This document shows, in pieces, positions 1 through 63,681 of a stretch of DNA of 64,000 bases. A program made the translations under genes and the position numbers. The number at the start of each line of letters is the position of its first letter. Position 1 is the stretch's first letter. Source of the stretch: an uncultured Alphaproteobacteria bacterium (lineage in GTDB: Bacteria; Pseudomonadota; Alphaproteobacteria; Puniceispirillales; UBA1172); assembly GCA_958431225.1 (NCBI GenBank), contig OY288107.1, forward strand, positions 1,701,501-1,765,500. The letters run 5' to 3'. The notes under the pieces were generated by a model. That model worked only from the letters and a program-made list of their open reading frames with translations. It ran no database searches and had not been told where the DNA came from.

Positions 1-3000
1 GGTCCGGCGATTTATGCGATTGACCCTACGGCTTCGGCGACAGGGGGAAATATGCTAGCATTGGAGGTCAGCACGCCCGACCCTGATGGCGTTGATACCA
101 ATTTTCCTATCACTTATCAATGGTTCACCACCACCGATGACGGCACAACGAAAACGCCTCTTGCCACCGATGCCGATGGCGCTAGTTATACGCTCAAAAT
201 GGGTGATAGCACCACGCCGGACTATGGCGTCACCGTGCGTTACACCGACATTTCGGGCAAAAATGAGGTCGTTGATTCTGCCCTCATCACCCTGCATCCT
301 TTGATTGCGACAGGTAGCGGGGCGGTTGAGGAAAATGACCAAGGCGCCGATACCGGCATCACGCTATCCGCAGGCAATGGCTACACGATAGGGGGCGATG
401 CTGAATTCTCTGTTTTTGCCAAAGGTGGGGACAATGATGGGGAGGAGGATGAGCGCTTTGAGGTGGTTAATGAAGCTGGTGTATGGAAGTTAAAATTAAA
501 ATCAAATGTATCCTTAGACGCCGAACAAGCGACACGAATTAATTTAAGGATTGTGCATAACAATGGGGCGGTGGTGCCGGTGGATGTGCAGGTTGCTGTG
601 GGGGATGTTAATGAACTTAACCCAGAGATTGCCCCCGAGACATTTCCCCCGCGCGATGGCGTCGTATTTTACGAGGATGTAGAAATTGGCACTGCCGTCC
701 ATGAGTTTGAAATCATTGATGATGCTACAGCGTTTGATGGGTTAAAAATCACCTTTGAAAGCACGAATAGAGATTTTAGTGAAGGCGACAGATTTACACT
801 ATCCAAAGAATTGCGGGTTGATGAGGAGACTGGCAAAAATAGGATATTTGCCAATCTTGAACTGGCACGAGAGCTAGATTATGATGAATATACACGCCTA
901 GATGCGAGCTATTCGGAGACTGTCACCGTTAAAGTTACGGGTTCAAGTATGCTTCAAAATGGCACGTTGCGATCATCTGTTACTGATTTTACATTTAGCA
1001 TTTATATTCTCAATATTAATGACACCGCCCCAGAATTGGAACTGCCCGATGGCACCGATTCTGCCGTGGCACAGCTTGACGAAAACACCGATGGCGCTAA
1101 TGTTGCGCTCAATATCAATTTCAAAGCCAGCGACCTAGATGATTCATTTTCATTTGCTAATGCGCACCAAGGGCATAACCTACCCGATACCGAATTCACC
1201 TTCACCATCAGCGGCGACCAAGCCCATAGATTTGAAATTGTTGCCAACCACAATGAAATTTACAACTGGCAATTAAATCTCAAAAGCGGACATAGCCTAG
1301 ATTATGAACGCGCCGCCACGCTCAATTTACAAATCACCGCCAGCGATGGCGTTAATACATCCGCGCCCATTTTTGTCACCATAAACGTAAATGACGACAA
1401 CACCGAAACCAATATCCATAACCCCTATTTCATCGGTGGTGCTATTGCTTTGGACGTGTTTGAAGATATTGCCGTGGGCGTACGCATTGCTACACTGACC
1501 GCCCTAGATGGAGACGGCGACACCCTGACCTATGCCATCACTGCTGGCAATGAAAGGGGGCTATTTGCCATTGACGCCAACACCGGCGCGCTCACCATTG
1601 CCAAAACGCTGGATTACGAAACCGCTATAACCCACACCCTAACGGTGCAAGTTGCCGACAACAACGGCAAAACCGATAAGGCGGAAGTAGCGGTCAATGT
1701 GCTTGATGTCAGCCCCGAAACCCCCGCCCCAACCGACACCACCCCGAGTGTCAATGATATCATCCCCATTTTCACCCGCGCCATTGATAGCCCCATGCAT
1801 GGCGTCATTGATGAAACCGGGGGCAGTGGCAACACCGAGGATGTCAGCACCGGCTATAAAATCCTTATTACCGATGCCGATAGCAATAATAACTTCACCT
1901 TTGACTTCAATGACAACCGCTTCAAATTTGCAGACCAAGGGGAGGGGATTTGGGAATTATTCCTCAAAGCCAACAATGCCGTGGATTACGATATGGCGGG
2001 GGGCGAATCCATCGCGCTTGATTTCCTTATCAATGACGGGGCTAATAATGCCGCACGGCGTGGGGCGGTCAATGTGAGGGTCAATGATATAGACGACCAC
2101 GCCCCAAGCTTTACCATATCGGGGACGGGGCAGATTGATGAGCAAATTTCTACACAGCATGATGCGGTCTATGCGGGGATTACTTTTACCATCAGCGATA
2201 TGGATACTGGCATAGATACGAATTCTACATTGCTATTTTCAATCAATCGCCCCTACTATGACCGCTTTGAGTTGGTGCGGGATGGAAACACCTTAAAACT
2301 TTACCTCAAAGCCGATGCGGTATTGGATTATGAAAGCGAAACGACCATTGACGGAATCCTCGCCACCATAAACCAGCACCCTTATAGCTATACGTCCCCC
2401 GCAGGTGCGGTGACGCTCCACGTCCAAAACAAAGACGAAGGCGATGCGGTCTATCAAATCAATGGTGCCTCTACCGCCATAGGCAGCATGCTCACTTTGC
2501 AACAAATTACCGATGACCCCGATGGCATCAAAGCGGGCACGCTCCGCTATCAATGGTTCACGACAACCGATGGCGGTGCGACCAAAAACGACATCGCCAC
2601 CAACGCCAATGGCGCTAGCTATACATTACAAACAGGCGACAGCATCACCGCACTTTACGGCGTCACCATCAGCTATACCGACAATGCCGACACCCAAGAA
2701 AGCGTTGATGTGCTGTTCGGCTTGACGGCTTCGGCGCCGGTTGGGACGGTGACGGAAAATGACCGAGGCGCTGATACCGGCATCACCCTATCCTTTGACG
2801 GTAGATATAGCGGGATTAGTGGTGCTTCGTTTGTGATCACGGGACGCGATGGCGAGATAGATAATCGTTTTGAGGTGGTTAATGAATCTGGCGCATGGAA
2901 GTTAAAATTAAAAGCAACAAAATTCCTAGACGCCGAACAAGCCACAAAAATCAATCTAAACATTGCCCTCAATGATGTGTCGGTGGATGTGCAGATTGCC

Positions 3001-6000
3001 GTGAATAATGTAAATGACGTTCGCCCAGATTATACTGAGGATACATATCGGGGCAATGATTTTACCGACCATTTCACGCTTTACGAAGATGCCAAAATTG
3101 GCACTGTCATCCATGAATTTGAGATCACTGAAGATGTCGGAAGGGAAGGGTTTCATGTTTCCTTTGCTGATTCAGGTGGCATCCGTACCAGAGGCGATAA
3201 ATTTATATTGTTTGAAGATATACGGATTGATGAGGAGACGGGCAGAGAACGGATATTCGTGCGGATTGAACTGGCACGAGAGCTAGATTATGAGGAATAT
3301 ACGCGCCTAAAACAGGATCATAGAGAGTCAGCGAGTATTGAGGTTTTAGGCTCATCTTTGGATGGCTTTGGTAATGTTAGACAAAGCACTGGAGAAATTG
3401 GTTTTGTCATCATAAATATCTTTAATGTCAATGACACGCCGCCGGAGTTAGAACTGCCCGATGGCACCAATTCCGCCATGGCACAGGTAGATGAAAACAC
3501 CGATGGCGCCAATGTTGCGCTCAATATCATGTTCAAAGCCAGCGACCTAGATGATTCATTTTCAACGCTTCCGGCGCACAGACAACATAATAACCTCCCC
3601 TTCACCGAATACACCTTCACCATAAGCGGCGACCAAGCGCATAAATTTGAAGTAGTAGCAAGCGGTGATACGGATTACGCTTGGCAGTTAAATCTCAAAA
3701 GCGGACAAAGCCTAGATTATGAACGCGCCGCCACCCTAAACCTACAAATCACCGCCAGCGACGGCATCAACACATCCGCCCCCCTTGAAATCACCATAAA
3801 CGTAAATGACGACGCAACCGAAACCAACCCCCACAACCCCTATTTCACCAACGACAGCATAAGCCTAGACGTGCATGAAAATATAACCGTAAATACACAA
3901 ATAGCCATCCTAACCGCCCTTGATGGCGATGGCGAGGCACCAACCTACGCCATCACAGCAGGCAACACCAACACCCAATTCGCCATAGACCAAAACAGCG
4001 GCATCCTCACCATAGCCAAATCCCCCAAATCCCTAAACCACGAAACCACCCCCACACACACCCTCACCATCACCGCCAATGACGGCAACGGCAAAACCGA
4101 AGAAATCATAGCAACAATAAACGTCCTAGACATAGATGAAGTGTTGGAATTTTCGCAAGCCGGCGGCTACATAGCGACAATCAAAGAAGATGGCACTAGC
4201 CTCACAACACTAGCGGTATCTGCGACTTTAAATGACCCGAATATCACCGATAATATCAGCTATGCCTTTTTGACCGATGCCAACACCGGCGCGGGCGACA
4301 CCACGCATTTAGGCTTTACGATTGATGCGGCGAATGGCACGATTAGCTTTACTGGCACCGCTAGCACGGATTTGGATTTCGAATCTATCGCCGAAAATCC
4401 AATCCCCTTAACCGTACGCGCTACCCACGATAATGGCGATGCCAATGTTCCAAATCCATCGGATGATATCACGGTGACTATCACTGTGGAGGATGTTAAT
4501 GAATTTGCGCCGGTATTTGTCACGCCCGCAACGGATACAACGCTCATTGGCGACAGCGCAAATGTTGCTGAAAATGCTGTGGTGAATGATAGGGTAGGGC
4601 TATTCCGTGCAACAGATGCGGATGGGGATAATAATGCTGTTGGCTACACGCTGGCTGGTGGCGGCGGTGTGTTTGATATTCGTGAAGTTGCAGGCACTAA
4701 TAATTGGGAAATTTATGTAACTGACACGTCCGCTTTGGATTTTGAATCAAGCACCAAAACCTATAACCTAGTCATCACGGCTTCGGATAGCGACCCCGAT
4801 ACGCCTAAGACGGAAACGAAACCGGTCCGCATCAGCATCACCGACATCAACGACAACGCCCCGATGCTTGGCGCGCCTGTATGGGTGGGCAGTTATGCGA
4901 CCTCGGTGCGTGAAGATACCGCCGCTAACACCGCGCTATTCCAAGTCACTGCCACCGATGGCGATACCGCGACCACACCACCCCCAACGCTGACTTATGA
5001 AATTGTTAGCATTGATGGGGTGGCACTTGCGCGCATCACCAACCCACTTTTCCGCATTGAACCTGATAATGGCGATGTTAAAATAGCAAACGCACTAGAT
5101 TACGAAACCGCCCAAAACCATACATTAATCATTAGGGCAACGGACGGAACGCACCCATCAAATGAGGTATCAGTCACCATCAATGTGGCAGACACCAACG
5201 ACAACGCCCCGATGGTGACGGTTGCTGGCACTGGGGCGATTGATGAGCGTATTGCGGGCGCAACGGATGCCATAGTTGCGACTGGAATCACCATTACGCT
5301 TGCTGATGCTGATGCCACTGATGCGTATAAGAGTGGCGTAGGTCTCACGCCGAATTTCAGGGTTCTCAATGCCGGTGATGATACGCACAATACGGATTTT
5401 GCGGTTGTGGATGATGGTAGCGGTAATTGGGTGCTACAATATACTGGCACAACATTATCTGCCGAATCCGCCGCCACGATTGCCCTCAAAATTGAGGTAA
5501 GCGATGGCGTGCATACGCCCCCGGATGTGTCGGATGCGTTCACCCTCACCGTCAACAACCTGCAAGAAGGCGCGGCGACTTATATTGTTTCGGGCAGTGT
5601 TGCGGCGGATGCGGAGCTCACGGCTATGCTTGCACCGGATGGCGCCGACCCTGATGGTGTTGATGGCACGGTTCCTATCATGTATCGCTGGTTCACGAAA
5701 TCTAGTGTTGATGCTAATCCGACCTCATTTACAGATAGCGGTTCGGGCGATTTCCAATGGCTTGGTGCGGAATCTACGGACAACACCTATACGATTATGG
5801 GCGCACCTGTTGCCGGGGCAGTTTATGGCGTTCTTGTCCGCTATACCGATGGCTTCTCGGCAAGCACGCCAAATTTCGTTCCCGCCCTAGCCTCAGCGTT
5901 GGTATTTTCGCAAACTGGCGGCTACTCGGCGACAATCAAAGAAGATGGCACGAGCCTCACAACGCTAGATATAGATGCGACTTTAGATGACTCGGCGGAC

Positions 6001-52125: not shown

Positions 52126-52216
52126 GCGGATTAGTGGGATAATTCCGCGTCTCGCTACGTTTCAGATGCAAAATAGCCCTGTAAAATTGTCCAAAAAGAT
52201 GCTACATATTTCGGAC

Positions 52217-52879
52217 ATGACACAAGCGACACCAAATCTAAAAACCGCCATCCTAGACCGCATTGAAAAAGCCGCGAAGAAAGAAGTATGGACGCCGCGA
52301 GATTTTCTAGATCTCGGCAAGCGCGATGCTACGGACAAGGCACTGCAAAGGCTAACGCAAGCCAGAATTCTGCGCCGCATCAGTCGCGGGCTTTATGACA
52401 AGCCATATTTTAGTAAGTTGATACAAAGAGACAATCCCCCTGACGTCAGGCAAATCATCGCCGCGGTCGCCCGGCGCGATTGCATCCGCGTGCTAGTCGA
52501 TGGCATGACGGCGGCGAATGACCTCGGGCTGACCAATGCCGTGCCGGCAAAAATCATCGTCCACACCGACGCACGCATCAAACCAATCCTCCTCGGCAAC
52601 ATGAAAATCACCTTCAAAAAAACCGCCCCCAGCAAATTATACTGGGCAGACAGACCCGCCATGCGCGTAGTTCAAGCATTACACTGGCTACGAGATATGA
52701 TGGGCAGGGACGATAATGACGCGATATTCAATCGGCGGTTAAAGGACATTCTATCGCACCCAAAACACGGCAAATCCATCCGCGACGATCTGCGCGCAGG
52801 TTTCATGGCGCTACCTGTCTGGATGCAAGATATGTTGCGCCCTCTGTTGGAGGAGGAAGGGGAAAACAAAGGGGACTAA
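52217..52879 (+). CDS. AbiEi-like (DUF6088) antitoxin-type protein
   Basis: This 220-aa protein starts from ATG 52217 (starts at 52199 and 52166 are possible). Its N-terminal winged helix reads VWTPRDFLDLGKRDATDKAL, then LTQARILRRISRGLYDKPY, typical of AbiEi/DUF6088 antitoxins. The rest covers the AbiEi-like body. AbiEi normally represses and neutralises an AbiEii nucleotidyltransferase toxin encoded next. None is present; an XRE-ImmA/IrrE gene follows instead. Confidence 0.75.
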   Translation: MTQATPNLKTAILDRIEKAAKKEVWTPRDFLDLGKRDATDKALQRLTQARILRRISRGLYDKPYFSKLIQRDNPPDVRQIIAAVARRDCIRVLVDGMTAANDLGLTNAVPAKIIVHTDARIKPILLGNMKITFKKTAPSKLYWADRPAMRVVQALHWLRDMMGRDDNDAIFNRRLKDILSHPKHGKSIRDDLRAGFMALPVWMQDMLRPLLEEEGENKGD

Positions 52880-52980
52880 TTTGTATAAAAATATCGCTTG
52901 CTTTTTATGCCTCAACCATTATGGTTGATATATGACAATGTTTTATGAGTTTATCAACCACAGAGAAAAGGAGAATCATT

Positions 52981-54060
52981 ATGTTTGGGGAACGTCTAAA
53001 ATTGGCACGAAAGCGGGCAGGGATGTCTTTGCAGACTCTATCTGGTCGCGCCACTCCACGCGTTTCTGCCCAGGCCATTAACAAATATGAAAAAGGTATG
53101 ATGATGCCATCGTCGTCGGTTCTTGTTGGTCTCAGTAAGGCACTTGATGTGTCCATTGACTTCCTAATGAGTAGCCAAGTGGTGGAATTATCCGGCGTGG
53201 AATTTCGAAAACATTCCAAAACTTCGGCAAAAGATCGCGCGCAAGCCGAAGCCCTTGTGATTGAGCGATTGGAAGACTACCTCGCCATTGAGGATATCCT
53301 TGATCTTAAAGAGCTTAATGATCCTTTTGCAGAAGTGCGGTGCGATTCTGTTGCTTCTGTTGATGAGATTGAAAAAAAAGCACAGGATCTGAGGCGCAAG
53401 TGGAAACTTGGCAATAATCCTATTCCCAGCATTACTGCTTTGCTTGAAAATAATGGGGTTAAGGTGATTGAGGAGAAACTTCCAGAGCGATTTGATGGGA
53501 TGACTTGCGCGGTAAAACGTGCGGACGGCAAGCCCGATATTGAGGTTATCATTATTTCAAACAAAACCAATATTGAGCGCAAACGATTCAATCTCGCCCA
53601 CGAAATAGCACATCGCGTGATCGGTAGCGTTACGGATTCAGTCGGCATGGATATTGAGAAAGCTATGCACTGCTTTGCTGGGGCTTTTCTTGCGCCTGCG
53701 GAGCATCTGCGCCGAGAGGTTGGCAAAAGCCGACATAGGGTAATTCTTCATGAATTAATACACTTGAAACAGATTTATGGGATGTCCGCTGCGGCGATGT
53801 TGATACGGCTACGTGATGTAGGAATATTAGATAAATCAAAGGTTGAATATGCGTTCAGAACTTATGCGCGCCCGTGGCGCAAAAATGAACCATCTCCAAT
53901 TGAAGACGAGGAAGGTTTTGGCGCATTTGAAAAACCACTCTTATTTGAGTCGCTGGTTTATCGTGCGCTTGCCGAAGATATGATTTCGTCAGTGCGGGCA
54001 GCGCAATTCCTCAAAATTCCTCTCGCCGAACTTGAAGAAGAAATGCGAGGGGGCCGTTAA
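52981..54060 (+). CDS. XRE helix-turn-helix plus ImmA/IrrE metallopeptidase
   Basis: I choose ATG 52981, which has AAAGGAG at the right distance, over 52945. The 359-aa protein has an XRE helix-turn-helix (residues about 3-62), a linker, and an ImmA/IrrE-type zinc peptidase motif HEIAH (207-211) in RFNLAHEIAHRV. Such proteins sense stress and cleave or relieve repressors. The PIN gene starts 2 bp after its stop, making a likely two-gene toxin-antitoxin-like unit. Confidence 0.88.
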   Translation: MFGERLKLARKRAGMSLQTLSGRATPRVSAQAINKYEKGMMMPSSSVLVGLSKALDVSIDFLMSSQVVELSGVEFRKHSKTSAKDRAQAEALVIERLEDYLAIEDILDLKELNDPFAEVRCDSVASVDEIEKKAQDLRRKWKLGNNPIPSITALLENNGVKVIEEKLPERFDGMTCAVKRADGKPDIEVIIISNKTNIERKRFNLAHEIAHRVIGSVTDSVGMDIEKAMHCFAGAFLAPAEHLRREVGKSRHRVILHELIHLKQIYGMSAAAMLIRLRDVGILDKSKVEYAFRTYARPWRKNEPSPIEDEEGFGAFEKPLLFESLVYRALAEDMISSVRAAQFLKIPLAELEEEMRGGR

Positions 54061-54062
54061 CA

Positions 54063-54515
54063 ATGACCTCAAACAAATTTCCCTCCGTTATTGTGAATGA
54101 TAATTCATGCCTCGTAGCTTTGCGCAAAGGGAGGCTTTTGCACCTGCTTGTAAATCTGCCTTATCAAGTAGTCATACCCTTGTTAGTGTGGGAGGATGAA
54201 ATGATCAAATTTACGGAACAGGAAACGAAAATACTTGACTCTGAAGCTACTATTCATGATTTGCCATTTGAACAAATGCAAGAAGTTTACGATTTAAAAT
54301 CAATTTACAAAAGACCATCAGTCGCTGACTGTAGCTGCCTCGTTACAGCTCTTCATTACGAAGATGTAATTCTGCTGACAGGCGATAAGCAATTACGCAA
54401 TGCGGCAAAGGATTCTGGTTGTTGTGTGCATGGGGCACTTTGGGTGATTGATGAAATCGAACGTCTGGAACTATGCAAAAATGCTATCCTTATTAAAGCG
54501 CTTGAAAGTTGGTGA
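54063..54515 (+). CDS. PIN-like domain toxin paired with XRE-ImmA/IrrE
   Basis: The 150-aa protein has PIN-like acidic residues Asp13 (IVNDNSCL), Glu44-46, Asp89 (VADCSCLVTAL) and Asp108 (LLTGDKQLR). The TGDK motif near the end is typical of PIN-like RNases. It is co-transcribed with the metallopeptidase gene. A short ACCGC/GCGGT hairpin with a T-rich tail lies about 120 bp downstream. Confidence 0.75.
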   Translation: MTSNKFPSVIVNDNSCLVALRKGRLLHLLVNLPYQVVIPLLVWEDEMIKFTEQETKILDSEATIHDLPFEQMQEVYDLKSIYKRPSVADCSCLVTALHYEDVILLTGDKQLRNAAKDSGCCVHGALWVIDEIERLELCKNAILIKALESW

Positions 54516-54653: not shown

Positions 54654-54850
54654 TATTTGTTTAGATTGCGTCCTGAATACAGTGTTGTGAACTCGTTTTG
54701 CATGTTTGCTCCAACGATATTGTGACATCAATTTGCCCCAGATGGAAAATTGGCGTATTCTAACTTGTTGAATTATATAGAACTTACGAATACGTTGAAA
54801 AATGATTCCCTTCAAGGTAGGAAATTTAATAAATTAAGCAGTGTGACATT

Positions 54851-56371
54851 ATGACTGACATGATACAAAAATACCTTTCGAAACACGGCCCGTCGCGGTC
54901 TTCGTTGGTCGCAGAGTTCTTAATCGCATCCGGCATGACGGCGGAGGCGGCGCGTCAGCGTATATCGCGTGCGCAACCGCCTGTTCACCGTTTTCCAATA
55001 CCTATGCTACCGAAGCGTGAGGCATTTCTCTACCTTAAGGAAGATCGGAACAGCGAACGCTTCTGGGATAATTTTATGCGAGACCTGCGGGCAACCGGAT
55101 CGGTTTTCGGCATCGCTATTGATGGCATGATTGCTCGAGGGGGGTTCATAAAGAAGAATGATTTTTCGGTTATCAGCTCGGCACCAGTTATTCCAGTGGC
55201 AAAACAACTCTCTGTCGAAGTCGTCGCCAAGCGTTTGATTAGGGCTGGTTTTATGCAGGAAGTGAATCACGAAAATGTGGCACACTACGAATTGCCGATA
55301 TCGCTGGCAAGCACTTCGCCAGAAGGGCTAAGAGTGCGTGAGCTGATAGAACGTGTTCTGCTTGATGCTATGCGGGAGTGGGCGGGGAATATTGGCCTGG
55401 TCAGTTTTGACTCTGCTCGACTACGTGGCGAACCTAATTTGGAACCTATTAGCTCATTTACCTTTGATTTTACTGGGGCAAGTTACCTCCTGCCACTTCG
55501 AGGGGATGCTGGCAAGCCTGGTTTTGTGGTGGCCGACGTGTTTGCTGAAGGCAGGCTCGGAGTAAATGAAGTCCGGTACTTTATCCGAAAGGCCACGGCA
55601 TTGAAGTCTACCCGTAAGGACATCGGCGTCCTGTCAATCATAGTGGCTGATGAGTTTTCAGGTGAAGCACTCACAGCAGGTCACGCAGCTGGTGTGCTAA
55701 TGGCAACGCCAAAAGACCTGTTTGGCAAGCGGGTTGGTAATGCAATCACTTCCCTGATGAAGGTTTTGAAGAACGCAGCGGCATACGCTTCTTCTAATCC
55801 TAAGCAGCTTATGTTCCTTATGGACAACCTACTAGAGATTGAGGGGCGAAATGGAAATCTTCGAGGAGTCCTTTTTGAGCTTATGGCGGGTTATTTGGCT
55901 CGGCTTGATGCTCCATCAATCGATATGAACAAAATAGCTAAAGATCCGAAGACTGGCAAAACAGCCGAAATTGATGTGCTCAAAGTGACTAATCAATCCA
56001 CCTCTGTAACGGCTATTGAATGTAAGGGTAAGGAGCCCGGTGGAGTCCTGACAATTTTTGAGGTTGAAAGATGGCTGGAGAAGATCGCGATTATACGCGC
56101 CTACTTGCGCAATCATGATAGTTTCCGTGAATTCAAGCACCGTTTCGAAATCTGGACCTCAGGCGCGATAGAAGCTGAAGCATTGTCGCTTTTACAGGAT
56201 GAAAAGGCAAAGCGAACAAAGGCGCCAATCGATTGGAAGGACGGGCAGGCGATGCTGAAATTGGCGACCGAGGCTAAGCAAAAGGGCGTAGCAGATGCCC
56301 TCAAACAGCATTTCATGAATCATCCTCTTGACGACACCAAGTGGAAAAGGATAACAAAGGCAAAGCAGTAA
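54851..56371 (+). CDS. PD-(D/E)XK nuclease-like protein, first gene of a three-gene defence operon
   Basis: In this 506-aa protein, an N-terminal winged-helix-like part is seen (SLVAEFLIASGMTAEAARQR). The C-terminal half has the nuclease pattern Glu343 (GVLFELMAGYLA), Asp375 (AEIDVLKV) and Glu390-x-Lys392 (TAIECKGK), as in restriction-endonuclease folds. The middle is unrecognised. It ends 9 bp before the OLD gene, which has an AGGGGGCAGG site, so the two are one operon. It is probably the DNA-cutting or recognition part of the system. No match to a named family is claimed. Confidence 0.7.
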   Translation: MTDMIQKYLSKHGPSRSSLVAEFLIASGMTAEAARQRISRAQPPVHRFPIPMLPKREAFLYLKEDRNSERFWDNFMRDLRATGSVFGIAIDGMIARGGFIKKNDFSVISSAPVIPVAKQLSVEVVAKRLIRAGFMQEVNHENVAHYELPISLASTSPEGLRVRELIERVLLDAMREWAGNIGLVSFDSARLRGEPNLEPISSFTFDFTGASYLLPLRGDAGKPGFVVADVFAEGRLGVNEVRYFIRKATALKSTRKDIGVLSIIVADEFSGEALTAGHAAGVLMATPKDLFGKRVGNAITSLMKVLKNAAAYASSNPKQLMFLMDNLLEIEGRNGNLRGVLFELMAGYLARLDAPSIDMNKIAKDPKTGKTAEIDVLKVTNQSTSVTAIECKGKEPGGVLTIFEVERWLEKIAIIRAYLRNHDSFREFKHRFEIWTSGAIEAEALSLLQDEKAKRTKAPIDWKDGQAMLKLATEAKQKGVADALKQHFMNHPLDDTKWKRITKAKQ

Positions 56372-56380
56372 GGGGGCAGG

Positions 56381-58204
56381 ATGCGCATACACGCAATTGA
56401 AATTGAGGGGTTCAGAGGGATAATATCTGGGAAGGTTAGGTTCAACGACTTTACTGTTCTGATCGGGCCGAACAATTCTGGTAAAACAACCATCATTGAG
56501 GCTCTTGCGCTTTTATTTGGTCGAGACCGCCTTGTTCGCACCCTCACTGAACATGACTTTTACGGCTCATGTCCTAGTGTTACGGACCGGATTAAGATTG
56601 TCGCAACCATTGCAGGTTTTGCTCCTAATGACCCTGCCCGTCATCCAGACTGGTTTCGTGCTAATCGCGCCGTGCCCAAATGGCTCAATCCAGCAAACGA
56701 TACCCTTTCGCCTGAAAAGCTGAATGATGATGATCTTCTTGTCTGCCAAATAGCATTCTGTGCTCGGTTTGATCATGCGAGCCTTGAGGTTGAGAGCATT
56801 CGTTATTTCCTAGACGATGTTGCGCAGGACGATCCTTTTGGAGACGATGTAAGCATCACTCAGATCCCGCTAGCACTTATCAAGGAACTGGGCTTCTTTC
56901 TTGTCCCGGCAAGTCGAACCTGGGATCGAATGATCTCGTTCGGCTCTGAATTGTTTCGTCGGGCGGTGACTTACGTTGGCGGAAAGCCAGCCGAGACCGT
57001 CATTGAGGAACGTGACCGGTTGAGAAACCCTACTGCGCCACTTGAGGTCGACGAAAAAATGAAGCCGCTGATAGACGAAGTGAACAGGGATATCGTTAGC
57101 CTTTTCGGGCGTCAAACCGAACTCAAGCTCCGGCTGACTTCGACAGACAGCGATGGAGTGCTCGAAGCGGTGATTCCCCATTTTTCGGAAGGTGACCAGA
57201 TACCGCTACCCTCTCGTAGACATGGTAGCGGCCTTATTTCTCTTCAAACACTCATCCTACTGATGCGCTTTGGATCCTTGCGCACTGCAAACGGCGAAAA
57301 TTTCCTCATGTGTATTGAGGAACCGGAGCTACATATCCCACCGCCACAACAGCGACGCTTGCTGCATCTCATGCAGAAGCACGCTTCCCAGACCATCATT
57401 ACAACACATTCGCCGACGGTTGCCGCAGTACCCGACCCTCATCAATTGGTTCTGCTAGCCAATGATGCTGGTCATTTGACGGCTTCGCCGCTTCTCGTGA
57501 CCCCGCTTGACACAGACGCAACAAGCCCGCAACGCGGACTGTTTCTATCTGACAGAGACGCAACCATTACCGCAATCATGAACCCAGCCGTCATTATTCC
57601 CGAGGGGAAGACGGATGCGAGTTGGTTGCGTCTTCTGGCACGGGTAGCCGACCTTTCGACCACGAACGAAAATCTCGTTAGTTTTACCCACGAGGTTGGT
57701 GTGATCCCCACCAAGGATTCTCGTATCGCTGATGTTTTTGATGACCTTCGTGGGGTGCATCCAATGCTTACCTGCCTCGTCGATGGCGATGCTCAGGGCA
57801 AAGCATATGCGAGGACACTTGCGGCCAAGCTAGAACCACCAGCCCGTGTCATGGTATGGCCGGATGGATGGACCATCGAAGACGTGATTGGTTGGGTACT
57901 CGCAGCTGACCACAGTATCCTTCAGGATCCTGAACTGGCACCCTACGGGCTACCTACGGATATTGGAAAATTTTCTGCTTTTCTCGCGCAGGACAATTTC
58001 AAAACTGATGAAGTGCTACACGGACTGATAGCTGATGCTATTTCAGCCAAGCCACAATGTTGTGCTCGTGTTGCGCACATGCTGAACGTCATTGCATCGC
58101 TTGCTATGGGCCGAGACGTGTCTGCCGAATGGGCGACGAGCACTGTGAGCAAAAGTGGCAAAACAACAATATGGACGTTTAACAATGTCGTTTCGGGGAT
58201 TTGA
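56381..58204 (+). CDS. OLD-family ATPase with TOPRIM nuclease domain (GajA-like)
   Basis: This 607-aa protein's ATPase has Walker A GPNNSGKTT (29-37), GSG signature (282-284), Walker B CIEEPELH (311-318) and TTHSP (341-345). The TOPRIM domain has Glu408 in IIPEGKTD and the DxD Asp468/Asp470 in LVDGDAQGK. This is the class 2 OLD layout of GajA in Gabija anti-phage systems, where a UvrD-like helicase gene follows, as here (20-bp overlap). GajA nicks DNA when nucleotide levels fall. The extra nuclease gene upstream is not part of standard two-gene Gabija. Confidence 0.88.
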   Translation: MRIHAIEIEGFRGIISGKVRFNDFTVLIGPNNSGKTTIIEALALLFGRDRLVRTLTEHDFYGSCPSVTDRIKIVATIAGFAPNDPARHPDWFRANRAVPKWLNPANDTLSPEKLNDDDLLVCQIAFCARFDHASLEVESIRYFLDDVAQDDPFGDDVSITQIPLALIKELGFFLVPASRTWDRMISFGSELFRRAVTYVGGKPAETVIEERDRLRNPTAPLEVDEKMKPLIDEVNRDIVSLFGRQTELKLRLTSTDSDGVLEAVIPHFSEGDQIPLPSRRHGSGLISLQTLILLMRFGSLRTANGENFLMCIEEPELHIPPPQQRRLLHLMQKHASQTIITTHSPTVAAVPDPHQLVLLANDAGHLTASPLLVTPLDTDATSPQRGLFLSDRDATITAIMNPAVIIPEGKTDASWLRLLARVADLSTTNENLVSFTHEVGVIPTKDSRIADVFDDLRGVHPMLTCLVDGDAQGKAYARTLAAKLEPPARVMVWPDGWTIEDVIGWVLAADHSILQDPELAPYGLPTDIGKFSAFLAQDNFKTDEVLHGLIADAISAKPQCCARVAHMLNVIASLAMGRDVSAEWATSTVSKSGKTTIWTFNNVVSGI

Positions 58205-59444
58205 AGGTCCGGCAGGCACGGGCAAAACACACCGACTTATCAAAGAAGTCGAGCATTATTTGGCGCAGCATCCGCTTGAACCTTATCAGCGTGTACTGGC
58301 GCTTACCTTCATGCACGGATCGCGAAAACGGCTCGACGAGCGCTTCCGCAATATTGCCGCCCTTCGGGGGAGTGTCACCTGCATGACAATCGACAGATTT
58401 GCGCAGTACATTATTCAAAGATGGTGTTCATTTGCGGCCGCAAAAGGGCTTCAGGCTGATGGCTTCGATCAGACCTGCGACATCTGCGGTCAACTACTCG
58501 AATGCTCTGTCATTGCCGAGTGGGTGGCGCGCACTTTCCCTGTGATTGTTGTTGATGAAGCTCAAGATTTGAATCCTGAACGACTACGTATTCTTAAGGC
58601 TCTTGCGCAGCATGTCGCACTTTTCGTCGCGGCAGATGAATTTCAATGTCTCAAAGATGGGCTTGATACAGCACCTTTTCTCCAATGGTTTGCGACAGGC
58701 AATGTTGAGGCTCTGAATGTCGTTCATAGAACAGGAAGGCAGGGACTTCTCACGGCAGGGGTTGCGCTTCGGAATCTTCAGTCGCCTCGACCCGGCGCAG
58801 GACTCAAGATTGATTATGAATACCCAAATGTCATGCCCTTTGCAATAGCGTCCTCGCTCGCCAGAGCGCCTGGAAGCAAGGCACTTATTTATGCCCCTGC
58901 GGGACGCGGATGGGCAGATAAATTTATTGCCCGTGCAATGCAAGGTATGGAATCCAAAGGTTACGGTATAATTCCGCCCCAGAACCTCCTCCATGAGGAC
59001 CGGAACGATGATGAGAAGCAGGCAGTTCTCGCGGCATTCGCGGGAATGGAAACAGTAGATACAGCTACTGCCTTGGCTACGTTGGATGCGATTGCCAATC
59101 CTCCACCCTGGGTTTCCAGTGTAAGTAAAGCGATTGTTAAAGCTGCCCAGACACAGGGATGCGAATCCTGGAGCGTGGCTGGATTGACAGATTTGGTTGA
59201 GCGGAAGGCTACACACCACAAAGCTTATGGATACCAGCGAACCTATGGCATTCCTGTAATGTCCATTCATCAGGCCAAAAATCGTCAATTTGACCATGTT
59301 GTTCTGCTGTGGCCACCGGGAGTGCCTGGAAGTAACGAGCAGAAGGCTCGTTTGCTCTACAACGGTATTACGCGGGCGGTTCTAAATTGTCATGTATTTG
59401 TGCGCATTGAGTCGCTTCTGAACCAGCCCCCGTTTCGCTTCTGA
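58185..59444 (+). CDS. Short UvrD/Rep-like helicase (GajB-like)
   Basis: The ATG at 58185 gives MSFRGFEGPAGTGKTHRLI; the frame opens earlier but that would lengthen the overlap. The 419-aa protein has Walker A GPAGTGKT (8-15), motif Ia ALTFMHGSRKRL, motif II VVDEAQDL (Asp124-Gln127), motif III FVAADEFQCL, motif V VMSIHQAKNRQFDHVVLL and motif VI LLYNGITRA. Length is well below UvrD (about 720 aa), consistent with reduced 1B/2B insertions. Its start lies inside the OLD gene, so translation is coupled. Confidence 0.85.
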   Translation: MSFRGFEGPAGTGKTHRLIKEVEHYLAQHPLEPYQRVLALTFMHGSRKRLDERFRNIAALRGSVTCMTIDRFAQYIIQRWCSFAAAKGLQADGFDQTCDICGQLLECSVIAEWVARTFPVIVVDEAQDLNPERLRILKALAQHVALFVAADEFQCLKDGLDTAPFLQWFATGNVEALNVVHRTGRQGLLTAGVALRNLQSPRPGAGLKIDYEYPNVMPFAIASSLARAPGSKALIYAPAGRGWADKFIARAMQGMESKGYGIIPPQNLLHEDRNDDEKQAVLAAFAGMETVDTATALATLDAIANPPPWVSSVSKAIVKAAQTQGCESWSVAGLTDLVERKATHHKAYGYQRTYGIPVMSIHQAKNRQFDHVVLLWPPGVPGSNEQKARLLYNGITRAVLNCHVFVRIESLLNQPPFRF

Positions 59445-60357: not shown

Positions 60358-60885
60358 ATGGTTGATGGACCTTTAACAAGTATGAAGATGGGTAAACATT
60401 GGGAGCGACCAATCGAAGCCCTTGAGAACGATTCCGTTGATCTGGACCAATGCAAGGTTCTCGTCAGTGATAGTATTACTCGTGAATTAAATGCGAAACC
60501 TAACATTTCTGTTTTGAGTAAAATAAAACTTTATTCACAAAAAAGTCAGTTGGATATTGATCCTATTTCTCAAATAAGGAAAATTTTTGATGAAAATAGC
60601 AACCCTCCTTTTATTGACTATCTAGAAAAGCAACTTATTCGTCGACTTGATGATGGGATGCAGATTGAAGATGCATTGCAGCAATCCCTTGAGGCAACTA
60701 TAATTTGGCATGCTGGCGAAGTAAAAAGTCGATTGCAAGGGGAAGTCAATCATTCCCATGAAAAGCAAAAAATTAGCCAAGAAAAAGCTCAAAATTTAAT
60801 AGAAAAAATAAACCGCACTCTTGATGGGCTTGATGTGAAGCCCATTGGTGAAGCGGTTTTAAACGATAAGAAAAACGCCTTCTAA
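60358..60885 (+). CDS. Unrecognised 175-aa protein, first gene of the QueC-like operon
   Basis: It is soluble, charged and mostly helical, with a probable coiled part near residues 125-155 (HEKQKISQEKAQNLIEKIN). No known motif. A good promoter and ribosome site precede it, and the QueC-like gene starts 51 bp downstream, so it is likely a partner protein. It is not a visible match to QatB or other named defence subunits. Confidence 0.6.
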   Translation: MVDGPLTSMKMGKHWERPIEALENDSVDLDQCKVLVSDSITRELNAKPNISVLSKIKLYSQKSQLDIDPISQIRKIFDENSNPPFIDYLEKQLIRRLDDGMQIEDALQQSLEATIIWHAGEVKSRLQGEVNHSHEKQKISQEKAQNLIEKINRTLDGLDVKPIGEAVLNDKKNAF

Positions 60886-60936
60886 GGACGCTATAATAAA
60901 AAATCGGGAATAGATGAGGGACCTAAATTTTAGAGA

Positions 60937-62298
60937 ATGTCTCGTTCCAAACATAGTAAGGTATTATCCATTGTCGTACTGGAATCTGGTCAAAAGCCGA
61001 AGCGGGTTTCTTCAAAGAAAATTCGCTTTCCAAGGATTGGCCATGAAATTAAATTCGATATTGATGCATTAGATACTTATGATTACATAGGCTGGAGCAA
61101 TATTCATTATGATCTGCTTGTGGTTAGTGGTGCGATAGAATTTGCCGACCGCAATCACAGACACGGGATTAGCCAGTGGGCACGTAATTTCAAGGTAAAG
61201 ATTCCCGTGCATGAGGTTGCTATTTGGAAACAGAAAGATGTTCAGGGTAGGTTGTGTGAGGTTGCTAGGTATCTAACTGGTGATGATTGGGAGTTTAATT
61301 TTATCCAACGACAAGGTGATCCTGAAGGTAAGAACAGACAGAAATGCTTGCCCTTAGAATATAATAAGCAAATTGTAATTGCCTATAGTGATGGCATTGA
61401 TTCTGTTTGCGTCTCGGCACTTTGTGAGAAAAATGATGAGGTGCTTCGGGTGCGTGTTACTAAGAATAAAAGTACGCGGAAAAAGGATGAGCGACCCTTT
61501 GACCAAGTGCCGTTTGAAGTTACGGGCAAGAATGTGGAGAGTAGTGTTAGATCGCGAGGGTTCAAATTTGCTGCAATCACCGCAATTGCCGCACATATCT
61601 CCGGTGTTGAAAAAATTGTAGTTCCTGAGAGCGGTCAAGGAGCGTTAGGCCCTGTTCTAATAACTTTACACAACACGTATGCCGATTATCGAAACTATCC
61701 AACCTATTTTCGGAAAATGGAAAAATTTATTAAGGCTGTTCTTAGGCACCAAGTGTCCTATGAACAACCGAGGCTTTGGCATACCAAGGGGCAGACGATT
61801 AAGGAGTTTCGTAGCCTTGATAGGCCCTACAATGACTTGATCACTACCCGCTCATGCTGGCAAAAGCGCTGGAATGTGATCATTGGGGGTAAACGCCAAC
61901 AATGCGGCTTGTGTGCAGCTTGTTTGCTCCGTCGCATGAGTATGCACGCAGCTGGCATAGATGAGCCAGTGGAGAACATTTACTTCTTTCCCGATTTAAC
62001 TGCAGAACACTATTCTGATGCCACACTGAAAGATAATAATGTGAAGTTACATGAGAGCATAATTAAGTATGGAATTATCGGCGCACAGCACTTTCAACGG
62101 TTAGCCAATATGGCGAAATTGTCTGACGAAGATCTTTCCGCATATGCCCTTGAACTCGCAGAAGCAACGAAAATCTCAAAAGAAGAAGCCTTGAAAAAAT
62201 TGAAAATATTGTTACAGAATCATGCGCAAGAATGGGATGACTTTTTGAGGGTGCAAGGGGAAAATACCTTTTTAAGGAGATGGATAAAAGGATGTTGA
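60937..62298 (+). CDS. QueC/QatC-like PP-loop enzyme
   Basis: This 453-aa protein has a PP-loop SDGIDS at 151-156 (IVIAYSDGIDSVCVS), replacing the usual SGGxDS, and a QueC-type zinc site Cys307, Cys323, Cys326, Cys329 (TRSCW and QQCGLCAACLLRR). QueC makes 7-cyano-7-deazaguanine; longer homologues such as QatC act in anti-phage systems. The about 140-residue N-terminal extension and the defence neighbours favour the latter class. No queD/queE or other queuosine genes are nearby. Confidence 0.8.
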   Translation: MSRSKHSKVLSIVVLESGQKPKRVSSKKIRFPRIGHEIKFDIDALDTYDYIGWSNIHYDLLVVSGAIEFADRNHRHGISQWARNFKVKIPVHEVAIWKQKDVQGRLCEVARYLTGDDWEFNFIQRQGDPEGKNRQKCLPLEYNKQIVIAYSDGIDSVCVSALCEKNDEVLRVRVTKNKSTRKKDERPFDQVPFEVTGKNVESSVRSRGFKFAAITAIAAHISGVEKIVVPESGQGALGPVLITLHNTYADYRNYPTYFRKMEKFIKAVLRHQVSYEQPRLWHTKGQTIKEFRSLDRPYNDLITTRSCWQKRWNVIIGGKRQQCGLCAACLLRRMSMHAAGIDEPVENIYFFPDLTAEHYSDATLKDNNVKLHESIIKYGIIGAQHFQRLANMAKLSDEDLSAYALELAEATKISKEEALKKLKILLQNHAQEWDDFLRVQGENTFLRRWIKGC

Positions 62299-62299
62299 T

Positions 62300-62833
62300 A
62301 TGACTGACTCAAACGAACTCGGCGCAGAAGAAATAGGTCGCCGCTTACGCATCGCGCGGGAAAATGCGGGCATCGGGCAGGATGACGCGGCGGCGGCGAT
62401 AGAAACCTCTCTCCCAACCCTTGTGTCCATTGAGCAAGGTGTGCGCCGTGCGCGTATGCCGGAACTGCAAATTCTCGCTAATCGCTATGGGATGTCAGTC
62501 AATGCATTGTTGCGCCGTGAGGCGATTCACACTGATTTGGCTCCTCGTTTTTGCAAACTTCGGGAAACTGAAGACGAGCATAGTTTGGAAGCGCTTCGGC
62601 TTTTGAATGATTTAGCGAATGCTGAAACCGAGCTTGAAAATATTTTGGACATCAAGCGGCGCGGGGAATACTCGCTGAGTTCAATGGCACATGCCACGTG
62701 GAAACGTGATCTTATGTCTGAAGGTCAATTAGCAGAACTTTTAAGGATAGGGCGCGTGGATTTCCGCAAACTGGTTGATGAGATTGAACTTGAGGAAAAC
62801 AACACAGACGACCTTCTCAAATCACCTACATAA
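62300..62833 (+). CDS. XRE regulator that appears to have lost an ImmA/IrrE peptidase domain
   Basis: The 177-aa protein has an XRE helix-turn-helix (RRLRIARENAGIGQDDAAAA, residues about 12-68), then NALLRREAIHTDLAPRFCKL. The end (SEGQLAELLRIGRVDFRKL) matches the very C-terminus of XRE-ImmA/IrrE proteins. The peptidase core with HExxH is absent between them, consistent with an in-frame deletion. It starts 1 bp after the QueC-like stop and probably regulates that operon. Confidence 0.7.
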   Translation: MTDSNELGAEEIGRRLRIARENAGIGQDDAAAAIETSLPTLVSIEQGVRRARMPELQILANRYGMSVNALLRREAIHTDLAPRFCKLRETEDEHSLEALRLLNDLANAETELENILDIKRRGEYSLSSMAHATWKRDLMSEGQLAELLRIGRVDFRKLVDEIELEENNTDDLLKSPT

Positions 62834-62886: not shown

Positions 62887-63681
62887 ATGACCAAAACACC
62901 ATCAACCAAACAACAACGTTTAGCAACGCTCATGCGCGCGACATCTGGCGCGATCCGTGTTGCCGATGCGATGCGCGCTTTTGACATAGACCGGCGCCAT
63001 GCCTCTACACTGCTGGCGGGGTGGCATAGGCAGGGTGCGCTTCGGCGTGTTGCGCATGGTTTGTATGTTCCTGTTCCGCCGTCAGCGATGGGGCAGACGC
63101 AGGTGCTTGAAGACCCGTGGGTGCTCGTGCCGGAGCTGTATGCGCCCGGCTACATAGGCGGATGGAGCGCGTTGGAGCATTGGGGGCTGACAGAGCAATT
63201 GTTTCGCTCAATCTGCGTGCTTACGCAGAAGCGTGTTGCCTATGGCGCACATACGCATCAAGGGGTCAATTTCTTTATCAAATACGCCCCGCAAAAGCAG
63301 TTATTTGGCACGGAGACCGTGTGGCGCGGGCATACGAAAATACTGATTTCTGACCCCTATAAGACGCTTTTGGATTGCATCAATGATTTGCATCTAGGGG
63401 CAGGGTTGCAGCACGTGACTGACTGCCTGCTTGAATTCAAGCGGGTGTTTCATAAGCCAAGCGACCTTGATGCATTGCTGGACTATGCCATTCAAATAAA
63501 TAATGGCGCGGTTTTCAAAAAACTAGGCTATCTGGCTGAACAGCTTGAGTTTAAGCCCTCATTTATCAATAAATGCCGCAAGCGCACGACTTCAGGCTAT
63601 GCGGTTCTGGATAAAAATGCTACGCATAACCGGCTGGTGACGCGCTGGAATTTATGGGTGCCGAGAGGAAAGAACAAATGA
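62887..63681 (+). CDS. AbiEi-like antitoxin-type protein
   Basis: This 264-aa protein has an N-terminal winged helix (RVADAMRAFDIDRRHASTLL, then GALRRVAHGLYVPV) followed by the AbiEi body (PELYAPGYIGGWSALEHWGL, then ISDPYKTLLDCINDL). AbiEi represses its operon and counters an AbiEii toxin. Here an XRE gene overlaps its stop by 4 bp instead. This repeats the arrangement at 52217-52981. Confidence 0.8.
   Translation: MTKTPSTKQQRLATLMRATSGAIRVADAMRAFDIDRRHASTLLAGWHRQGALRRVAHGLYVPVPPSAMGQTQVLEDPWVLVPELYAPGYIGGWSALEHWGLTEQLFRSICVLTQKRVAYGAHTHQGVNFFIKYAPQKQLFGTETVWRGHTKILISDPYKTLLDCINDLHLGAGLQHVTDCLLEFKRVFHKPSDLDALLDYAIQINNGAVFKKLGYLAEQLEFKPSFINKCRKRTTSGYAVLDKNATHNRLVTRWNLWVPRGKNK

Follow-up and report, generated by a model that had tools for sequence, protein, structure and literature searches.

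A divergent Gabija pair and an unnamed PD-(D/E)XK nuclease gene, probably joined by a deletion, in an uncultured alphaproteobacterium

The hallmarks of the Gabija defence system are a 4:4 complex of GajA and GajB, which nicks phage DNA once triggered, and an anti-phage activity that needs both genes. Among one-protein nucleases, type IV restriction enzymes cleave modified DNA and carry a modification-reader domain, and Card1 has an N-terminal CARF domain that binds cyclic oligoadenylate. Class 2 OLD proteins are equated with GajA in a review that describes GajA as nicking DNA and GajB as an NTPase that DNA stimulates and defence requires (PMC10568477).

The window analyzed here is a stretch of 64,000 nucleotides from an uncultured alphaproteobacterium (contig OY288107.1). 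On its plus strand, positions 54851 to 59444 hold three intact, co-directional open reading frames (ORFs) of 506, 607 and 419 amino acids, which encode a nuclease-like protein (hereafter P506, also for its family), an OLD protein and a UvrD-like helicase (Table 1). The P506 and OLD genes are separated by 9 nt and the OLD and helicase genes overlap by 20 nt; the helicase length is counted from the ATG at 58185, and the ORF list also gives a longer frame with a GTG start at 58155. An earlier note on this DNA had given the same coordinates, sizes and P506 motif residues (Glu343, Asp375, Glu390-x-Lys392), all of which agree with the ORFs and with an 11-sequence alignment, and had proposed that the tightly spaced trio is one machine, either a Gabija variant or a separate system with two nucleases and a helicase.

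Table 1 Features of the P506-Gabija locus in the window, and Gabija pairs near P506 at other loci.
Feature or locus	Window coordinates	Strand or orientation	Spacing	Evidence or arrangement
Region upstream of P506, probable promoter/leader	54714..54850	+		kept in Hoeflea as far as the ATG
P506, predicted winged-helix-like N-terminus and C-terminal PD-(D/E)XK nuclease, 506 aa	54851..56371	+		E343, D375, E390, K392 invariant
Active site of the P506 nuclease, from E343 to K392	55877..56026	+		invariant alignment columns
Putative deletion scar: final 14 codons and stop of P506, from the hipA 3' end	56327..56371	+		LDDTKWKRITKAKQ against HipA IGDAMRTRIATTRQ
Spacer with ribosome-binding-like AGGGGG	56372..56380	+	9 nt	same as the hipA-OLD spacer of Hoeflea
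GajA-type (class 2) OLD, ABC ATPase and TOPRIM, 607 aa	56381..58204	+		PADLOC GajA PDLC00086, PDB GajA chains, invariant residues
GajB-type UvrD-like SF1 helicase, 419 aa	58185..59444	+		PADLOC GajB PDLC00104, Pfam, PDB GajB chains
Sphingomonas L002		divergent		Gabija pair immediately beside P506
Aquamicrobium L030		same strand	roughly 160-250 nt	GajA-GajB-P506
Agrobacterium L050		same strand	roughly 160-250 nt	GajA-GajB-P506
Sinorhizobium garamanticum L053		same strand	roughly 160-250 nt	GajA-GajB-P506
Rhizobium leguminosarum L060			about 1.8 kb	Gabija near P506, AbiE between

Further genes lie nearby in the window. Upstream of P506, positions 52945-54515 hold an HTH plus ImmA/IrrE-type gene (PADLOC RmrA, 6e-48), followed after 2 nt by a 150-aa gene that is PIN-like in appearance and has no Pfam match; the two are possibly a regulator or toxin pair. 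AbiEi-type antitoxin genes (DUF6088; AbiEi) are found at 52166-52879, with no AbiEii partner directly behind it, and at 62887-63681, near the window end, where the partner may be outside. A QueC/QatC-like gene at 60937-62298 (PADLOC QatC 1e-33, below the NCBIfam cut-off) is flanked by an HTH gene and by a gene of 175 aa that has no family match (60358-62833), and none of the ORFs in that span was recognised as QatA, QatB or QatD.

The best PADLOC matches of the OLD and UvrD-like proteins are GajA (PDLC00086; 1.1e-42 over OLD residues 1-428) and GajB (PDLC00104; 3.4e-17, with a short best stretch), respectively. Pfam UvrD-helicase and UvrD_C_2 scored above cut-off in the helicase, and family profile searches recovered the PDB chains of GajA at 5.6e-9 and of GajB at 1.5e-4. 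Invariant in the OLD protein and nine relatives are G29-x-N-N-x-G-K-T-T, E314, E408, D412, D468, D470, E500 and K541, the TOPRIM residues being assigned by motif order against the Bp residues E400/E404/D455/D457/E508/K562 (PMC6755086, PMC10822852), with D at position 412 where the reference Bp residue is E. The protein has a Walker A ABC ATPase and a C-terminal TOPRIM domain with the E, DxD, helical-domain acidic residue and lysine of class 2 OLD proteins, and the locus shares with Gabija an OLD ATPase-TOPRIM gene whose 3' end is overlapped by an SF1 helicase gene, with the TOPRIM acidic residues and lysine conserved. The relation of the two proteins to the models and structures of GajA and GajB, together with the invariant residues, bears out the earlier view of the OLD-UvrD pair as a Gabija core. 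The pair differs from described Gabija in forming a divergent clade with weak and partly local profile matches, in a helicase of 419 aa compared with 494 aa in Bacillus cereus GajB, and in the extra nuclease gene apparently fused in front of it by a deletion.

The small size of the helicase, to which the earlier note had drawn attention, is normal for this Gabija clade because the helicases of nine relatives are also about 420 aa long; a truncation was ruled out, as the relatives are equally long, and even shorter GajB proteins of 362-368 aa occur. The plasmids that carry the closest OLD-UvrD relatives are alphaproteobacterial, with a few others. The helicase, always of about 420 aa, is encoded by a gene that overlaps or adjoins the OLD gene at 10 of 10 related loci, and P506 is absent from all 10 of these distinct plasmid loci. 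Judged from sequence, this OLD-UvrD pair makes up a Gabija unit that is divergent and complete in itself.

P506 had no match to a family in Pfam or NCBIfam and no significant one in PADLOC, and the defence-profile search showed that it is not a subunit of any system named in these libraries. E343, D375, E390 and K392 are invariant among 11 family sequences (28-59% identity to the window protein), and in the AlphaFold model the E...D...ExK motif lies on an alpha-beta core whose helix-strand order agrees with PD-(D/E)XK. The core (residues ~361-470; pLDDT of 63-95 per 10-residue block, in a whole model of only 55) matches PD-(D/E)XK nucleases, with MspJI best (E=3e-4), then AF1548 and EndoMS, and, more weakly, winged-helix proteins. 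The invariant residues and core fold matches confirm the first gene as nuclease-like, and P506 is an unnamed PD-(D/E)XK nuclease family. A literature search on its E. coli member found nothing.

Like MspJI and other winged-helix-fusion endonucleases (PMC11037411), P506 appears to combine in one protein a PD-(D/E)XK domain with winged-helix-like elements; unlike MspJI, to which it has no significant sequence match, it lacks a visible SRA-type reader, in a whole model of low confidence. With regard to the reader domain of type IV enzymes, P506 shows only predicted winged-helix-like segments. The nuclease core also has weak profile similarity to Card1/Can2 (CARF-PD-(D/E)XK, DUF1887; E=0.047), and single family members match PADLOC CARF_PDDEXK (best 3e-6), but the P506 locus differs in having no detected CARF domain and no CRISPR context, and the reading of P506 as a CARF nuclease was not supported, since the window protein gave no CARF match in profile searches that included PADLOC. 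In the middle of the protein, residues 196-300 (window 55436-55750) match the nuclease core in strength of conservation, with D206, Y212, G224, F225, D229, K247, G281 and T286 invariant. AlphaFold models this middle domain with low confidence, and its predicted strand-helix order resembles that of a second nuclease-type fold; a duplicated nuclease fold found no support, as comparing the profiles of residues 196-300 and 318-475 yielded a probability of only 9.5%.

The origin of the short distance between P506 and the OLD gene could be read from a Hoeflea MAG that contains the best relatives of both proteins (80% and 87% amino acid identity, respectively). Positions 1741-3352 of its contig C232 are 77% identical (blastn) to window positions 54714-56328, including 24 identical nucleotides directly 5' of the P506 ATG, and contig C234 carries, in order, the P506 3' end, hipB, hipA and OLD. 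Because the end of C232 and the start of C234 share an exact 64-nt overlap, the Hoeflea order is P506-hipB-hipA-OLD, an order that joins two MAG contigs by end overlap and does not come from one contig; the contig stops inside OLD, so that gajB lies off it. The Hoeflea OLD gene begins 9 nt behind hipA, and these 9 nt are identical to the spacer between P506 and OLD in the window. The 47 nt 5' of gajA are 83% identical to the Hoeflea hipA-gajA sequence, compared with 78% for gajA itself, and farther upstream identity drops to 30% and then to about 20%. Since C234:11-65 and C234:1879-3319 align to abutting window stretches (56275-56329 and 56328-57768), 1.81 kb is missing from the window; the breakpoint lies at 56326-56330, with a short match, CCG[C/A]TT, shared by the two ends of the missing segment. 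With OLD only 9 nt behind hipBA in Hoeflea (L048, 361-1922), the Gabija gene there may be co-transcribed with this toxin-antitoxin system.

The C-terminal tail of the window P506, LDDTKWKRITKAKQ, matches the HipA end, IGDAMRTRIATTRQ, at 30 of 38 nt, and the best of 623,823 other positions reaches 23. The alignments of HipA relatives (54-57% identity) extend to residue 430-433 of the 436, nearly to the last residue, and the tail is thus native to hipA. Hoeflea P506 has a native 54-aa tail, which the window protein lacks, and the other P506 relatives have tails of their own, none with a LDDTKWKRITKAKQ-like sequence. The simplest history suggested by these alignments is a 1.81-kb deletion in the window lineage; as it would have been in frame, the final 14 codons of hipA would now close the P506 gene, and gajA would have kept its 9-nt spacer, with the HipBA system as the source of both and hipB and hipA themselves deleted. 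The converse, in which P506-OLD is the original arrangement and hipBA was inserted in Hoeflea, draws on the facts that only two genomes show the region and that the polarity depends on the homology of the tail; such an insertion must have ended, by coincidence, where the sequence resembles a native HipA C-terminus, an end that HipA homologues have and that the dissimilar tails of P506 relatives do not, and we consider it highly improbable. Tight spacing, taken earlier as an argument for one machine, loses that force, the 9-nt gap having been inherited from the hipA-OLD junction through the apparent deletion. The ratio dN/dS between window and Hoeflea, a comparison that does not single out the period since the deletion, is 0.12 for P506 and 0.04 for OLD, so both are selected genes and not chance ORFs, and purifying selection on both continues between the two lineages.

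P506 relatives were found in 357 plasmid records and at 14 loci of one GTDB scan, and a close relative with at least 80% query coverage occurs in 63 of 5,426 complete E. coli genomes, with 72 of its 75 placements on plasmids. Because the sampled genomes of the order, class and phylum contain few copies, the survey rests mainly on plasmids and one genome scan; three different family queries gave no match on phages or viral contigs. At the inspected loci P506 is mostly a lone gene with varied neighbours and without OLD/UvrD, and the neighbours include AbiE, type III RM, pAgo, PtuA and CBASS genes. In enterobacterial plasmids (L010, L011) a DUF4238 gene comes after the P506 relative and may be its partner within that subfamily, and in Hoeflea (L024, 440-1684) an ArdC-like anti-restriction gene lies directly 5' of P506. 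The gene is split over two frames, probably by frameshifts, in Novosphingobium (L034, 10001-11479) and Rhizobium sp. SSA_523 (L051, 9001-10493).

When the window OLD was used as a tblastn query, no pair was seen beside any other P506. The conclusion that P506 is never near OLD/UvrD was refuted, as this query misses other Gabija clades: PADLOC with extra seeds identified Gabija pairs adjoining P506 at L002, L030, L050 and L053 (Table 1). Gabija is near P506 in about 5 of 21 lineages, immediately adjacent in 4, with variable order and orientation, and in both the window and Hoeflea P506 lies upstream of the Gabija gene(s). Aquamicrobium L030 and Agrobacterium L050 have a GajAB clade in common (GajA 49%, GajB 43% and P506 34% identical), a resemblance behind which an older shared cassette possibly lies. 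A count of 4-5 in 22 corresponds to P values of ~0.004-0.02 at a background of 5% and 0.06-0.17 at 10%, both backgrounds being assumed. Co-occurrence of P506 with Gabija is recurrent, neither rare nor obligate. The earlier note had taken rare co-occurrence as grounds for dismissing its proposal, and this holds insofar as P506 is usually found without OLD/UvrD but fails for the lineages with Gabija near.

Could the three proteins nevertheless form one obligate machine of two nucleases and a helicase? The co-directional layout of the window, with its gap and overlap, and the co-directional GajA-GajB-P506 order at three other loci agree with such a machine, but the 9-nt gap appears to be a deletion product, OLD/UvrD is missing at most P506 loci, and P506 is neither regularly linked nor in fixed order, being present at 0 of 10 loci of the window clade. 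We regard this reading as very unlikely.

A looser connection, in which P506 is a non-obligate accessory that selection keeps joining to Gabija though each can work alone, is also unlikely, if less so. It would serve as a second nuclease, taking DNA that GajAB has nicked or unwound, or as a guard against Gabija escape. P506 stands beside or near Gabija of different GajA/GajB clades (L002, L030, L050, L053, L060 and window/Hoeflea), Gabija is the commonest strongly matched system among 109 P506-neighbour proteins, and on the P506 tree a minimum of 4 changes is required to explain the Gabija label; set against this, order and orientation are not conserved, the P506 of L052, 89% identical to its sister in L053, is without Gabija, most P506 loci have other neighbours and most Gabija loci have no P506, and significance hinges on whether a 5% or a 10% background is assumed. 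The association is more frequent than we would expect of random neighbours, and some functional link between P506 and Gabija is possible. The fuller version, in which P506 is an unrecognised optional Gabija companion, repeatedly joined to it across clades because the defences reinforce each other, and brought into one transcription unit here through the loss of hipBA, seems to us rather improbable.

We consider it likely that the locus holds two separate defence units, one a Gabija pair and the other a nuclease that stands alone, recently joined by deletion at one junction, and the trio is probably not a new three-part machine. The first unit would be P506, a single-gene PD-(D/E)XK DNase with predicted DNA-binding winged-helix-like segments, which, from its fold and gene neighbourhood, would restrict invading DNA alone, like a one-gene restriction enzyme; a type IV-like mode of restriction is our preferred guess, held with somewhat less than even confidence. 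The second would be the divergent Gabija pair, a GajA OLD ATPase-TOPRIM nuclease and a GajB SF1 helicase/NTPase, and each unit would work alone. In the ancestor, the order would have been P506-hipB-hipA-gajA, as in the Hoeflea MAG, and the 1.81-kb deletion would have taken out, in frame, P506's own C-terminal tail, hipB, and hipA except its last 14 codons. Since then gajAB has probably been transcribed from the P506 promoter, the region upstream of P506 appearing conserved in the alignment.

The locus illustrates that, within a defence island, operon-like overlap and tight spacing can be the scar of a deletion, here readable at base level, and are no proof of a joint machine. P506 itself, a nuclease family without a name that is carried on plasmids, goes undetected by current defence libraries and recurs beside Gabija.
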